Positions 4,235 to 10,698 of a DNA stretch of 13,055 nt are shown here, piece after piece (the stretch's first letter is position 1; every line of letters begins with the position of its first letter). This DNA comes from Deltaproteobacteria bacterium (GTDB lineage Bacteria > JAUYMQ01). The notes beneath the pieces are model-generated. The model searched no databases and had not been told where the DNA came from. It saw nothing but the letters and a program-made list of their open reading frames with translations. Both the position numbers and the translations under genes were made by a program. The DNA is taken from assembly GCA_030698575.1 (NCBI GenBank), contig JAUYMQ010000055.1, positions 1-13,055 of the forward strand, read 5' to 3'.

Positions 4235-5853
4235 TGGCGACCGCCACGATGGATCTCCGTCCGTATCAGGTCGAGAGCAAAAATGCCATCCAAGCGGAGT
4301 GGGCAAAGGGGAACCGCCGAACTTTACTCGTCTTGCCAACCGGCACGGGAAAAACCATCGTCTTCTCCAAGCTGGCCGAAGACTGCGTTCGTGATGGTGA
4401 GCGGGTTTTGATACTCGCTCACCGGGGCGAACTCCTTGAGCAAGCGGCCGATAAGTTGAACCAGGCCACTGGGCTGGGTTGTGCTGTCGAGAAGGCCGAG
4501 GAGACCTGCCTTGACAGCTGGTTTCGGGTTGTCGTCGGCTCGGTGCAATCCATGATGCGAGAAGGCCGCCTGGCCCGGTTCGACCCGGAGTACTTCGGAA
4601 CGATCATCGTGGACGAAGCTCACCACGTTCTCTCGGAAAGCTATCAACGTGTGCTGCGCCATTTTGATGGCGCCAAGGTCCTGGGGGTAACAGCGACCAG
4701 CGACCGCGGCGACATGCGCAACCTGGGCGAGTATTTCGAGAGCCTGGCTTACGAGTACACGCTTCCCAAGGCGATCCGGGAAGGGTATCTGTGTCCGATC
4801 AAGGCGCAGACCATCCCGCTCCGGCTGGACCTGACCAGCGTGGGTGTGCAGGCCGGAGATTTCAAGACGTCCGATTTGGGATCGGCCCTCGATCCTTACC
4901 TTCATCAGATCGCAGAAGAGATGGCCGAGCATTGCTTGGATCGGCGCACTCTCGTGTTTCTGCCGCTCATCGCCACGAGCCAGAAGTTCCAGACCATCCT
5001 TGCCGCCAAGGGCTTCCGGGCCGTCGAGTGCAACGGCGAAAGCCGGGATCGTTCGGAGGTTCTGCGTGACTTTGCAGGCGGCAAATACGACGTTCTCACG
5101 AACTCGGCCTTGCTCACCGAGGGTTACGACTGCCCGCCCATAGACTGCATTGTGGTTCTCCGGCCTACCAAAATCAGAAGCTACTATTCCCAGATGGTGG
5201 GCCGCGGGACCCGACTCTATCCCGGCAAAGACCATCTCCTTCTCCTGGACTTCCTCTGGCACACGGAGCGCCACGAGCTCTGCCACCCCGCCCACCTCAT
5301 CTGCGAGTCAGATGATGTGGCGCAAAAAATGACGGCCAACATTGAGGAGTCCGGCTGCCCGGTAGACATCGAGCAAGCCGAGAGGGAAGCGTCAGAAGAT
5401 GTGGTCGAAGCCAGGGAGCAGGCCCTCGCCCAGAAACTCTCCGAGATGAAGCGGCGCAAGCGGGCCCTGGTCGATCCGCTGCAATTCGAGATGTCCATTC
5501 AGGCCGAGGACCTCGCCGGGTATGTGCCGAGCTTCGGTTGGGAGATGGGGCCACCCACAGAAAAGCAAGTGGGCGCTCTTGAAAAGGCGGGCATCTTGCC
5601 GGACGAAGTCGAGAGTGCCGGGAAGGCGTCAAAGATCCTCGATCGGCTGAGCATACGCCGCATAGAAGGGCTGACCACACCGAAGCAGATTCGCTTCCTC
5701 GAGGGACGGGGGTTCGAGCATGTGGGCCAGTGGCGGTTCGAGTCGGCCAAGGGTTTGATCGACCGGATTGCCTCCAACGGCTGGCGCGTGCCGCGAGACA
5801 TTGATCCATCCAAGTACACGCCAGCTGAGCCAGCGGAGGCGTGGCCCGCATGA
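4234..5853 (+). CDS. DEAD/DEAH-box SF2 helicase (539 aa)
   Basis: ATG 4234 overlaps the upstream TGA. All main SF2 motifs are present: motif I LPTGTGKT (34-41), Ia LILAHRGELL (59-68), II VDEAHH (126-131), III VTATS (152-156), V TEGYDCP (295-301) and VI QMVGRGTR (320-327). It should be an ATP-driven DNA translocase or helicase of the phage/UvsW-like group that remodels forks or recombination intermediates. After the two RecA lobes comes a charged helical segment (375-411). The C-terminal part has two similar units, TEKQVGALEKAGI (442-454) and TPKQIRFLEGRGF (482-494), the second ending in LIDRIASNGWRVP; this looks like a duplicated DNA-binding appendage. It is translationally coupled to the primase gene by an ATGA overlap. 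Confidence 0.92.
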   Translation: MATATMDLRPYQVESKNAIQAEWAKGNRRTLLVLPTGTGKTIVFSKLAEDCVRDGERVLILAHRGELLEQAADKLNQATGLGCAVEKAEETCLDSWFRVVVGSVQSMMREGRLARFDPEYFGTIIVDEAHHVLSESYQRVLRHFDGAKVLGVTATSDRGDMRNLGEYFESLAYEYTLPKAIREGYLCPIKAQTIPLRLDLTSVGVQAGDFKTSDLGSALDPYLHQIAEEMAEHCLDRRTLVFLPLIATSQKFQTILAAKGFRAVECNGESRDRSEVLRDFAGGKYDVLTNSALLTEGYDCPPIDCIVVLRPTKIRSYYSQMVGRGTRLYPGKDHLLLLDFLWHTERHELCHPAHLICESDDVAQKMTANIEESGCPVDIEQAEREASEDVVEAREQALAQKLSEMKRRKRALVDPLQFEMSIQAEDLAGYVPSFGWEMGPPTEKQVGALEKAGILPDEVESAGKASKILDRLSIRRIEGLTTPKQIRFLEGRGFEHVGQWRFESAKGLIDRIASNGWRVPRDIDPSKYTPAEPAEAWPA

Positions 5854-8066
5854 ACGGCAACGGCAAGCTCGACCTGGGAATTCTAAGTCACATCGACCCG
5901 TCCGCTCTCCATTATCAGGAGTGGCTCTCCGTCGGCATGGTCCTCAAAGACCAGGGCTACACGGCGTCCCAGTGGGATGCGTGGAGTCAACGCGACTCGG
6001 GCCGATACAAGGCGGGCGAGTGCTATCGCAAATGGGATGGGTTCCACGGGTCGAGCAACCCGGTCACCGCGGCGACCATCGTCCAACTAGCCAAAGAGCA
6101 GGGGTGGATGCCCCAAAGCGGCGCAGATGCCTATGAACTCGAATGGGATGCGGTCATTGGCTCGAAGGACGAGAAGGTGATCATCGACCGCAACTGGATC
6201 GAGGGCGTCGAGGTCGTCGAGCCGGACGAATGGGACCCCATCGGGCAGTTGGTTACGTACCTGGAGACGCTGTTCGAGGCGGGCGAGAATGTCGGCTACG
6301 TCACAGAAAGCTGGGAAAAAGACGGGAAATATCTGCCGAGCAAGGGGGCCTGGGACCGTACCGCCGGCGAGCTGATTCAAGCGCTTGCCGGGTGCAAAGG
6401 GGACATCGGTGCTGTCATAGGCGACATCAAGCCCGAAGTCGGCGCTTGGATCCGTTTCAACCCGCTTGACGGCAAGGGCGTCAAGAACGAAAACGTCACG
6501 GACTACCGATACGCCCTGGTCGAGTCGGACGACACGGACGTCGATCGGCAACACGCCATCATCAAGGCGCTGGAGTTGCCCGCGGCATGTTTGGTCCATT
6601 CAGGCGGCAAGAGTCTCCATGCCATCGTCAAGATCGAGGCAGCGACCTATGAAGAGTACCGCAAACGTGTTGACTACCTATACAATGTCTGCAGCAAGAA
6701 CGGACTCAAGATCGACTCTCAGAACCGCAACCCTTCGCGCCTCTCGCGGATGCCGGGTGTCATGCGGAACGGTCGCAAACAATTTCTCGTCGGCGTCAAC
6801 ACCGGGAGGGGGTCGTGGGCGGAGTGGTACGAATGGATCGAGGGCGTCAATGACGATCTCCCAGAGCCCGAAGCGCTCGCGTCGGTATGGGATAAGCTAC
6901 CCGATCTTTCGCCACCTCTCATCGCCGGGGTACTCCGCCAAGGTCACAAGATGCTTCTGGCAGGGCCGTCCAAGGCCGGCAAGTCCTATGCCCTAATCGA
7001 ACTGTGCATCGCCATCGCCGAGGGGCGCAAATGGCTGGACTGGATCTGTGCCCAAGGCAAAGCGATGTACGTCAATCTTGAGCTGGACCGGGCCAGCTGC
7101 CTGCATCGGTTCAAAGACGTGTACGGCGCACTGGGGTGGGATCCGGCTAACCTCGCCAACATCGACATTTGGAACCTTCGGGGCAAAGCCGTTCCCATGG
7201 ACCGCCTGGCACCGAAGCTCATTCGCCGGGCCCAGAAGAAGAACTACATCGCCATCGTCATTGACCCCATTTACAAAGTCATCACGGGCGACGAGAACAG
7301 CGCCGACCAGATGGCCAACTTCTGCAACCAATTCGATCGGGTGTGCGCCGAACTCGGGGCGGCTGTGATCTACTGCCACCACCACTCCAAGGGCCAACAG
7401 GGCGGGAAGCGCAGCATGGATCGGGCTTCGGGGTCCGGCGTATTCGCCCGTGACCCCGACACCTTGCTGGACCTGATCGAGCTGGACCTGACCGAAGACA
7501 TTATCAAGCAGCAGCAAAACAACGCTGTATGCAAAGCCGCCATGGCGTTGCTGGAGGAGCACGGCAAGGCGGGCGAGGTGTCACAGGACGACGCCTGCAG
7601 CCAGAGGGCCGTGCTGGAGGCGTGCAAGCGGCTCCTGGACCCCAACACCCTCCAGACGTTCGCAAGGGCCATTGATGGCATCAGGGACGCCGCTGCGTTG
7701 CGGTCGGCGTGGCGCATCGATGGCACCCTGCGGGAGTTCCCGAAGTTCGCGCCGGTAGACGTCTGGTTCGACTATCCCATTCACCGGACGGACGCCGCTG
7801 GCGCTCTCAAAGACGCGGAGGCCGAGGGGGAAGGGCCCGCATGGAAACGGGCAATCAAGAGACGAAAACCCAAAGAGTCGAAGGCCGCGGAGCGCAAACG
7901 AGCGGTCGAAGTGGCCTATGAAGCGTGCGGGATCGAGGGGGAAATCACCGTCGAAGCCATCGCGGAGTACATGGGCGTGACAACCAAGACAGTGAAAAAC
8001 AGGATAAAGGAACACGGCGGATTCGAGATCGACGGCAATGTCGTAGGAAAGAAAAAAACGTCCTGA
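5850..8066 (+). CDS. Fused primase-helicase: PriCT, primase core, RepA-like hexameric helicase, HTH
   Basis: ATG 5850 is preferred because it overlaps the helicase stop and sits about ten bases after GCGGAGGC; GTG 5841 is too close to that site. Of 738 residues, about 11-90 match a PriCT-2 module (YQEWLSVGMVLKD through CYRKWDGFHG). Residues 195-320 match an archaeo-eukaryotic-type primase core: GAWIRFNPLDG (198-208), acidic VESDD (224-228), HSGGKSLHAIVKI (250-262) and NPSRLSRMPGVMR (294-306). Residues about 355-545 are a RecA-fold RepA-like helicase with Walker A GPSKAGKS (372-379), Walker B IVIDPIY (469-475), YCHHHSKG (508-515) and RASGSGVFARDPD (525-537). A Lys/Arg-rich linker (664-684) leads to a helix-turn-helix (697-722, ITVEAIAEYMGVTTKTV). 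It probably binds the origin, unwinds it and makes primers. The repeat-rich region directly downstream may be its target. Confidence 0.9.
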   Translation: MNGNGKLDLGILSHIDPSALHYQEWLSVGMVLKDQGYTASQWDAWSQRDSGRYKAGECYRKWDGFHGSSNPVTAATIVQLAKEQGWMPQSGADAYELEWDAVIGSKDEKVIIDRNWIEGVEVVEPDEWDPIGQLVTYLETLFEAGENVGYVTESWEKDGKYLPSKGAWDRTAGELIQALAGCKGDIGAVIGDIKPEVGAWIRFNPLDGKGVKNENVTDYRYALVESDDTDVDRQHAIIKALELPAACLVHSGGKSLHAIVKIEAATYEEYRKRVDYLYNVCSKNGLKIDSQNRNPSRLSRMPGVMRNGRKQFLVGVNTGRGSWAEWYEWIEGVNDDLPEPEALASVWDKLPDLSPPLIAGVLRQGHKMLLAGPSKAGKSYALIELCIAIAEGRKWLDWICAQGKAMYVNLELDRASCLHRFKDVYGALGWDPANLANIDIWNLRGKAVPMDRLAPKLIRRAQKKNYIAIVIDPIYKVITGDENSADQMANFCNQFDRVCAELGAAVIYCHHHSKGQQGGKRSMDRASGSGVFARDPDTLLDLIELDLTEDIIKQQQNNAVCKAAMALLEEHGKAGEVSQDDACSQRAVLEACKRLLDPNTLQTFARAIDGIRDAAALRSAWRIDGTLREFPKFAPVDVWFDYPIHRTDAAGALKDAEAEGEGPAWKRAIKRRKPKESKAAERKRAVEVAYEACGIEGEITVEAIAEYMGVTTKTVKNRIKEHGGFEIDGNVVGKKKTS

Positions 8067-8077
8067 CGTTGTTTTCC
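8046..8077 (+). repeat. Degenerate inverted repeat over the primase stop codon
   Basis: AACGTC (8057-8062) and GACGTT (8065-8070) are perfect inverted arms around CT, inside wider purine/pyrimidine arms beginning GGAAAGAAAA and ending TTTTCC. The outline (GGAA, A-run, ACG, then CGTT, T-run, TTCC) resembles the three perfect repeats downstream, with a different centre. It overlaps the TGA at 8064-8066. The T-run after the stem means it could also act as a weak transcription terminator for the primase transcript. Confidence 0.5.
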
Positions 8078-8105
8078 TCGCACCTTGACAACTAAATACC
8101 CTGGC

Positions 8106-8134
8106 GGAAGAAAACATGATTTGCGTTTTCTTCC
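8106..8134. repeat. Inverted repeat copy 1 (10-bp arms, 9-base loop)
   Basis: GGAAGAAAAC (8106-8115) and GTTTTCTTCC (8125-8134) are perfect inverted arms around ATGATTTGC. The arms are polypurine on one side and polypyrimidine on the other. The central nine bases differ from copy 3 at only one position. Confidence 0.85.
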
Positions 8135-8148
8135 CTCGGGGAAATGAG

Positions 8149-8183
8149 GGAAGAAGAAAACACGATCTGCGTTTTCTTCTTCC
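8149..8183. repeat. Inverted repeat copy 2 (13-bp arms, 9-base loop)
   Basis: GGAAGAAGAAAAC (8149-8161) and GTTTTCTTCTTCC (8171-8183) are perfect inverted arms around ACGATCTGC. Relative to copies 1 and 3 an AAG triplet is added in the left arm and the matching CTT in the right arm, so pairing is kept. It starts 14 bases after copy 1; TTCCCTC (8131-8137) and GAGGGAA (8146-8152) also form a hairpin that bridges the two copies. Confidence 0.85.
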
Positions 8184-8217
8184 AGGGAAACGAGAGAAAA
8201 ACACGTTACTTTCCCTG
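8183..8217. repeat. Inverted repeat CAGGGAAA/TTTCCCTG
   Basis: CAGGGAAA (8183-8190) and TTTCCCTG (8210-8217) are perfect 8-base inverted arms. The 19-base interior contains GAGAAAAACACG, which resembles the left half of the main repeat motif, so this may be a decayed copy. Confidence 0.55.
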
Positions 8218-8272
8218 CCTGCCCCGGGCCCCGGATGGAATTATATGGAACGGAATTGGAAGCAAAAAACGA

Positions 8273-8303
8273 GGGAAGAAAACACGATTTGCGTTTTCTT
8301 CCC
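8273..8303. repeat. Inverted repeat copy 3 (11-bp arms, 9-base loop)
   Basis: GGGAAGAAAAC (8273-8283) and GTTTTCTTCCC (8293-8303) are perfect inverted arms around ACGATTTGC. It lies 89 bases after copy 2 and is followed by TGGAAGCAAA, which also occurs at 8257-8266 just upstream, so the copy is flanked by short direct repeats. Confidence 0.85.
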
Positions 8304-8408
8304 AGGTGGAAGCAAACGTGCCACGCTGGGGTTTTGGCGTTTTCATCTCGCCGGCCCCGAATTGGAAATTCGCCGAAACAGGCTCTGCAAAGGGGTTTGG
8401 AGGTACAT

Positions 8409-8424
8409 TGTGACGATGATCACA
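8409..8424. promoter_or_regulatory. CRP/FNR-type palindrome TGTGA-N6-TCACA
   Basis: TGTGACGATGATCACA has both half-sites of the classical CRP consensus with the correct six-base spacing. No CRP-family gene is in the window and the host is unknown, so binding is unproven. The palindrome could equally be an operator for a phage regulator. Confidence 0.35.
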
Positions 8425-8483
8425 GGGAAGAAAAAAACACCTCTTAAAAGAGAACCCTTCGGTTTCCCTCGCTTCGCTCACCC

Positions 8484-8546
8484 GTCACGGGGGAAAGAAA
8501 GCCGCCCGCTCTTGCGGGGCGGCGTCTTCCTTCCCCCAACCGTGAC
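8484..8546. repeat. Long imperfect hairpin (63 bases)
   Basis: GTCACGG (8484-8490) pairs with CCGTGAC (8540-8546). Inside, GGGGGAA (8489-8495) faces TTCCCCC (8531-8537), GAAA faces a CTTC-type segment with small bulges, and GCCGCCCGC (8501-8509) pairs with GCGGGGCGGC (8514-8523) with one bulge around a TCTT loop. No T-run follows, so a standard intrinsic terminator is unlikely. It is followed by the most AT-rich bases of the region. Confidence 0.6.
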
Positions 8547-8609
8547 TAAGAAAATATTTCCAAACCAAAACCAGATGTAAAAATGTGGCATCAGGAGGAC
8601 GGAAGAAAA

Positions 8610-8879
8610 ATGGACGGAGAGAGATTGAACGCCAATGGCAACAAAGCGTTTCTTGGTACGCATCGGAACCTCCAATGCGTTAGACAAATGCCCGAACTCC
8701 GGCACAAGGTTGGCGACGCGTTCGACATCAACAAAAGCGAAGTAGTGAAATGGCTGATCGAGCAACCAGAAGTCAGACAGTACATTTTCGACTTGGTCCG
8801 GGGCGGCGACAAGAGACGCGAACAGCTCATCGCCCACGATCCCGAGCGCGGCACATGGAAGGGCGTCGGCTCGACATGA
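8610..8879 (+). CDS. Small hypothetical, helical phage protein (89 aa)
   Basis: ATG 8610 is chosen because AGGAGG (8593-8598) lies the right distance upstream. An earlier in-frame ATG at 8583 has no ribosome site before it. The product starts MDGERLNANG and has a mixed central part (VGDAFDINKSEVVKWLIEQPEVRQYIFDLVRGG, in two consecutive helices), which looks like a small DNA- or protein-binding helical module. No family is recognised with certainty. The stop overlaps the RusA start (ATGA), so it is coupled to resolvase synthesis. It is the first gene after the candidate origin. Confidence 0.65.
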   Translation: MDGERLNANGNKAFLGTHRNLQCVRQMPELRHKVGDAFDINKSEVVKWLIEQPEVRQYIFDLVRGGDKRREQLIAHDPERGTWKGVGST

Positions 8880-10622: not shown

Positions 10623-10698
10623 GGCCCCGTGGCTCAGTGGTGAGAGCGCCTGCCTGTCGAGCAGGATGCCGCGGTTTCGATTACCGCCAGGGTCGCCA
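10623..10698 (+). tRNA. tRNA-Asp (anticodon GTC)
   Basis: A full cloverleaf of 76 bases can be drawn: acceptor GGCCCCG (10623-10629) with CAGGGTC (10688-10694), D arm GCTC/GAGC (10632-10647), anticodon arm CCTGC/GCAGG with loop CTGTCGA (anticodon GTC at 10656-10658), five-base variable loop, T arm GCGGT/ACCGC with loop TTCGATT, discriminator G and encoded CCA (10696-10698). The discriminator G and GTC anticodon fit aspartate identity. The acceptor stem has one C-A mismatch (C at 10628 against A at 10689) and one G-U pair, so charging may be imperfect or the mismatch may be corrected or tolerated. Phages often carry tRNAs to adjust codon supply. Confidence 0.93.

Follow-up and report, generated by a model that had tools for sequence, protein, structure and literature searches.

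The noncoding DNA directly behind the primase-helicase gene of the window (the whole 13,055-nucleotide stretch analyzed here) contains an array of inverted repeats that is probably the initiator-binding part of a phage replication origin. The array is followed by a split copy of the repeat built around a palindrome and then by a long hairpin, and this three-part anatomy is conserved in phrog_2597, the family to which the primase-helicase belongs. All four traits of the phrog_2597 origin family are found in the window: a primase gene upstream, an array that begins at its stop codon, a split copy, and a covarying hairpin on the coding strand. The array, a candidate opening site, and the hairpin lie directly behind a gene for a protein with primase, helicase, and winged helix-turn-helix (wHTH) domains. 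A replication origin would be expected to have such parts, and from this arrangement we infer binding, opening, priming, and origin function. On our best reading the candidate origin spans 8045-8546, which extends beyond the interval first noted from the sequence alone (8046-8303; here referred to as the sequence-only reading).

The window corresponds to one entire 13-kb contig with phage-type genes, encoding an SbcC-like ATPase, a Sak4-like annealing protein, a helicase, the primase-helicase, and a RusA resolvase. A tRNA-Asp (gtc) gene is located inside this phage module at 10623-10698. The primase-helicase matched the phrog_2597 profile with 1,164 bits over residues 13-739, and its helicase region was also recognized as an AAA_25 domain. 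Another contig of the same assembly (G000; contig C462, 1763-2188) encodes a further protein whose AAA_25 domain scores above the curated cutoff, and the Streptococcus satellite phages Javan2 (MK448355.1) and Javan594 (MK448557.1) encode distant relatives of the helicase part (~25% identity). When a profile of 52 relatives was compared with solved structures, RSF1010 RepA was the sole match (helicase domain, E = 2.4e-6), and RepA was also the closest fold to the helicase domain (Z = 16). Fold matches to the primase domain included the S-2L AEP domain (Z = 14.6) and RSF1010 RepB' with its ssiA initiator DNA (Z = 13.8). The AlphaFold2 model of the primase-helicase had a mean pLDDT of 80, and one made separately for the C-terminal 80 residues had a mean of 85; the C-terminal models consist of helices followed by a two-stranded wing. 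The best fold matches of this C-terminal domain were mostly winged-HTH regulators, all of them weak, and we infer that the domain is the reader of the repeats.

Table 1. Features of the primase-helicase gene and of the candidate origin behind it (window positions)
Feature	Position	Strand	Description
Primase-helicase initiator gene, phrog_2597	5841-8066	+	741 aa
Primase-helicase domains			Residues: PriCT_2 14-84; AEP primase fold ~132-334; RSF1010-RepA-like helicase ~376-655; winged HTH ~678-741
C-terminal winged-HTH coding region	7872-8063	+	Residues ~678-741; recognition helix ~715-725, then beta wing (AlphaFold2 models)
Degenerate inverted repeat over primase stop codon (8064-8066)	8045-8078	.	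AGGAAAGAAAAAAACGTCCTGACGTTGTTTTCCT
Inverted repeat copy 1	8106-8134	.	Perfect 10-bp arms, 9-nt center (ATGATTTGC)
Inverted repeat copy 2	8149-8183	.	Perfect 13-bp arms, 9-nt center (ACGATCTGC)
Degenerate copy	8183-8217	.	8-bp arms CAGGGAAA/TTTCCCTG, AAACACGTTA within center
Inverted repeat copy 3	8273-8303	.	Perfect 11-bp arms, 9-nt center (ACGATTTGC)
Split repeat copy	8424-8469	.	Half-sites AGGGAA and TTTCCCT around palindrome CTCTTAAAAGAG (8441-8452); candidate strand-opening site
Long hairpin GTCACGG...CCGTGAC	8484-8546	+	Candidate primase assembly or priming site

The three perfect copies of the repeat lie exactly where the sequence-only reading had placed them, with the arm lengths and nine-base centers that it described, and copy 2 has the matched extra triplets that it noted in the two arms. 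It also correctly recognized a degenerate copy over the primase stop codon. This copy has counterparts in close relatives, in which the KKT-stop codons form the first repeat. The reading was incomplete as to extent, having missed the degenerate copy that adjoins copy 2, the split copy, and the hairpin. Copies 1 to 3 were the sole matches to the consensus in the window when up to three mismatches were allowed, and no match was obtained in 200 dinucleotide shuffles; an exact motif search of the 4.1-Mb assembly containing the window returned no copies beyond these three. The total arm score was 61, compared with a mean of 1.4 and a maximum of 80 among 2,000 shuffles. Owing to the purine-rich composition of the region, an occasional shuffle has a high arm score, and since rare shuffles reach such totals, the case for the array rests on the identity of the motif and its conservation in relatives.

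A refuting observation named at the outset was the lack of the repeats at this place in homologous phages, and the comparison of relatives gave the opposite result. Relatives were collected in viral contigs, in bacterial genomes, and among annotated phages, and 89 were kept as nonredundant; a set of 98 genomes contained few sequence relatives, all distant. In 94% of the 89 relatives, the DNA immediately behind the primase gene had an inverted-repeat load above the 95th percentile of the coding control. The mean load per 400 bp was 39 around and behind the primase stop codon, compared with 1.7 for DNA inside the gene and 1.6 for DNA at +800 (P ~ 1e-28). Four loci had no such load just 3' of the primase (L005, L006, L008, and L120). 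In L006 and L008, an extra open reading frame separates the primase stop codon from the array, which is shifted ~550 nt downstream and is still accompanied by the hairpin, and L120 probably has the same arrangement; in L005 (2392 onward), only part of the array follows the primase before the sequence becomes unrelated, apparently through an insertion. At the C terminus, the primases of L016, L092, and L114 seem to bear no relation to the usual wHTH, yet in L016 the gene was still followed by repeats. Among the inverted-repeat peaks of the BCJA1c and Dulem virus 35 genomes, the array ranks only second, a point against the origin reading. A DNA-level comparison of the region with phage records yielded only short matches in primase-coding sequence, the noncoding part being too diverged. 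The arm sequences themselves vary widely among relatives (GGGACA; GTGAAAA; GGCGGC with ACCAT centers; TTTTC; GGAAG) yet remain inverted repeats, which indicates that symmetry has been maintained during sequence turnover.

If the wHTH reads the repeats, the sequence of the array should follow the wHTH and not the overall phylogeny. We tested this prediction with 66 loci, thinned to less than 85% core identity, using the k-mer similarity of the noncoding arrays. Array similarity was correlated with HTH identity when core identity and GC content were taken into account (partial rank correlation of 0.51), a value reached in 0 of 1,000 permutations, none of which exceeded 0.26. The corresponding correlation with identity of the catalytic core, given the HTH, was -0.03, and control DNA taken inside the gene and at +700 showed the reverse of the pattern for the array. 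Along the DNA, the signal peaked ~0 to 200 bp after the gene. Along the protein, it was near zero up to residue 655, rose gradually to the stop codon, and was highest at residues 712-739, which comprise the recognition helix and the wing; the identity of residues 724-739 is in part set by the repeat lying across the end of the gene. These data favor the earlier proposal that the conserved symmetry reflects a dimeric protein site or a hairpin under selection, because the array follows the wHTH and not the core.

The wHTH-coding DNA, the array, and the hairpin share a stretch of no more than 700 bp and might be co-inherited, which raises the question of whether the array and the wHTH codons simply travel together by recombination and match with no functional cause. 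The rise of the signal toward the end of the gene fits such linkage, as do the mutual correlations of hairpin, array, and wHTH similarity. We considered the hairpin as independent evidence against linkage, and it failed in this role, since its similarity itself tracks that of both the array and the wHTH. The signal is nearly gone at +300 to +400 bp downstream, however, and linkage alone does not yield arms that keep their symmetry through sequence turnover; we regard it as the least probable of the alternatives, a little below the two discussed below. Because the HTH codons, the array, and the hairpin are neighbors and mutually correlated, co-inheritance contributes in some measure to the match between array and wHTH.

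In most relatives, the array is followed by a copy of the repeat whose half-sites are separated by a short palindrome. This palindrome is generally AT-rich and is located ~45 to 20 bp ahead of the hairpin. Palindromes whose arms reach at least 7 bp were present in this interval in 72% of loci versus 4% of shuffles, some of them being junctions between repeat copies. The palindrome in the window is weak, with 5-bp arms and an AT content of 67%.

To describe the hairpin, a covariance model was built from 28 relatives with the window left out. Two-sided changes occurred in 12 of its 18 pairs, and the observed covariation score was reached by 0 of 500 shuffles. This model recovered the window hairpin (E = 6.4e-9) and also found further relatives outside its training set; a scan of the window with the phage hairpin model gave one clear hairpin and otherwise weak matches. 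Folded as DNA, the window hairpin is more stable than shuffled sequences (z = -4.6). Its outer stem contains the half-site of the array (GGGGAAAG/CTTCCCC in the window), a feature seen also in relatives, and the initiator may therefore contact the hairpin as well. When 2.9 million viral contigs were scanned for exact occurrences of the most frequent hairpin sequence, there were 19, and 19 of 19 were 123 to 319 bp after a phrog_2597 primase gene.

The hairpin model scored 44 bits on the plus strand versus 15 on the minus strand, and the alignment uses G-U pairs on the coding strand. Such a preference would be seen if the array and hairpin were mRNA structures serving processing, stability, or antitermination in the replication operon, but a priming site in single-stranded DNA predicts it equally. 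An RNA element also leaves it unexplained that the array sequence follows a DNA-binding domain; an Rfam scan of the window matched no family except tRNA, and terminator-like matches were weak, most of them falling on the opposite strand or within the hairpin. We thus consider an RNA element unlikely. The repeats themselves were separately evaluated as an intrinsic terminator, and this candidate was rejected, as the matches were few and weak, with the best on the minus strand.

Inverted repeats between genes, with one copy overlapping a gene end, are also what an operator array could look like, and the predicted wHTH weakly resembles dimeric regulators, the typical binders of such operators. 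In that case the repeats would be bound by the primase wHTH, or by some other regulator of the phage, chiefly for transcriptional control of the downstream recombination genes or the primase operon, and would have no role in initiating replication. Against this, the region from 7900 to 8700 contains only a single weak sigma-70-like promoter match, on the minus strand; the downstream gene changes between relatives and the array and hairpin do not; and a regulator alone would account for neither the split palindromic copy nor the hairpin. An operator array is accordingly about as improbable as an RNA element.

The preferred reading remains a probable replication origin, and the suggestion that the repeats are origin iterons of the upstream, HTH-ended initiator is supported. 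We propose that a single protein, encoded upstream and predicted to combine an archaeo-eukaryotic-type primase, a hexameric RepA-like helicase, and a C-terminal wHTH, would carry out the initial steps. Once made, the protein would bind, through its wHTH and probably as dimers, the inverted repeats behind its own gene. The bound proteins might then form helicase rings and melt the neighboring palindrome, which has a half-site on either side. The exposed top strand could fold into the hairpin, near or at which the primase domain would make the first primer, to be extended by a host or phage polymerase. In the complete genomes of three relatives (BCJA1c, FP_Lugh, and Dulem virus 35), GC skew indicated no consistent position and speaks neither for nor against this origin. 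In literature searches that covered mainly open-access journals, neither a description of this origin family nor an experiment on it was found. With this region, a large phage family, including phages of Streptococcus, Paenibacillus, Bacillus, Faecalibacterium, and Flavonifractor, among others, has a specific candidate origin.

Experimentally supported origins occupy the same position as the window array in phage Sfi21, in pRN1, and in the PICIs. In Streptococcus thermophilus phage Sfi21, a 302-bp noncoding origin and phage-inhibitory sequence is annotated immediately 3' of the primase gene, and in extra copies this origin is reported to block the phage, so that origins of such a kind can give phage resistance. 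Sfi21 and DT1, taken together in this comparison, resemble the window in having a noncoding origin directly 3' of the primase, a likeness of position only. The neighboring helicase of DT1 is homologous to that of the window (25% identity). The DT1 primase, however, is divided between two proteins, one of the Prim-Pol/PriCT_1 type and one of the D5 type. Homology of the window protein with the DT1 primase proteins was rejected, as no significant alignment was obtained, and the hairpin model had no match in the Sfi21/DT1 origin.

The SaPI/PICI rep-ori, in the published passages considered, lies immediately 3' of the initiator gene and has two sets of iterons flanking an AT-rich region, and so resembles the window in its position and in having repeats around such a region. 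As described there, the PICI iterons are on both sides of the AT-rich region, while the window array is one-sided and its palindrome is flanked by single half-sites; these passages describe no hairpin, in contrast to the conserved hairpin of the window. pRN1 and Bordetella phage BIP-1 share with the window both a primase-helicase-wHTH protein and a stem-loop directly 3' of its gene. In these systems the primase is of the AEP type, the sequence of the stem changes while its fold is kept, and the stem-loop is required for replication in pRN1. They differ from the window in having an SF3 helicase and no reported iterons, compared with a RepA-like helicase and inverted repeats, and specific binding was not found for ORF904.

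By analogy, the closest working parallel is the IncQ plasmid RSF1010. At its oriV, RepC binds iterons, RepA unwinds the DNA, and RepB' primes at the ssi hairpins (ssiA and ssiB). As proposed for the window, repeats for a binding protein are followed by unwinding and then by one or more hairpins for an AEP primase, and in fold RSF1010 RepA and RepB' rank first or near the top among solved structures matched to the window helicase and primase, the likeness to RepA being at the domain level. RSF1010 differs in using three separate proteins, iterons read by RepC, and two hairpins, where the window has one fused protein, inverted repeats, and one clear hairpin. Because the DT1 primase is unmatched, the PICI layout differs, and the RSF1010 proteins are separate, we do not place the phrog_2597 origin in the Sfi21, PICI, or RSF1010 type.

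The comparison does link a fused phage protein to the helicase and primase of RSF1010. We give roughly even chances to a further idea, namely, that this one protein does the jobs that RSF1010 splits among RepA, RepB', and RepC and that its wHTH, the array starting at the gene's stop codon, and a strand-specific priming hairpin form a swappable specificity cassette whose members evolve jointly and independently of the conserved primase-helicase core. If true, such a widespread replicon would offer a readable protein-to-origin code across many phages. The reading predicts the DNA that each initiator recognizes, so specificity could be tested by exchanging wHTH domains and arrays.
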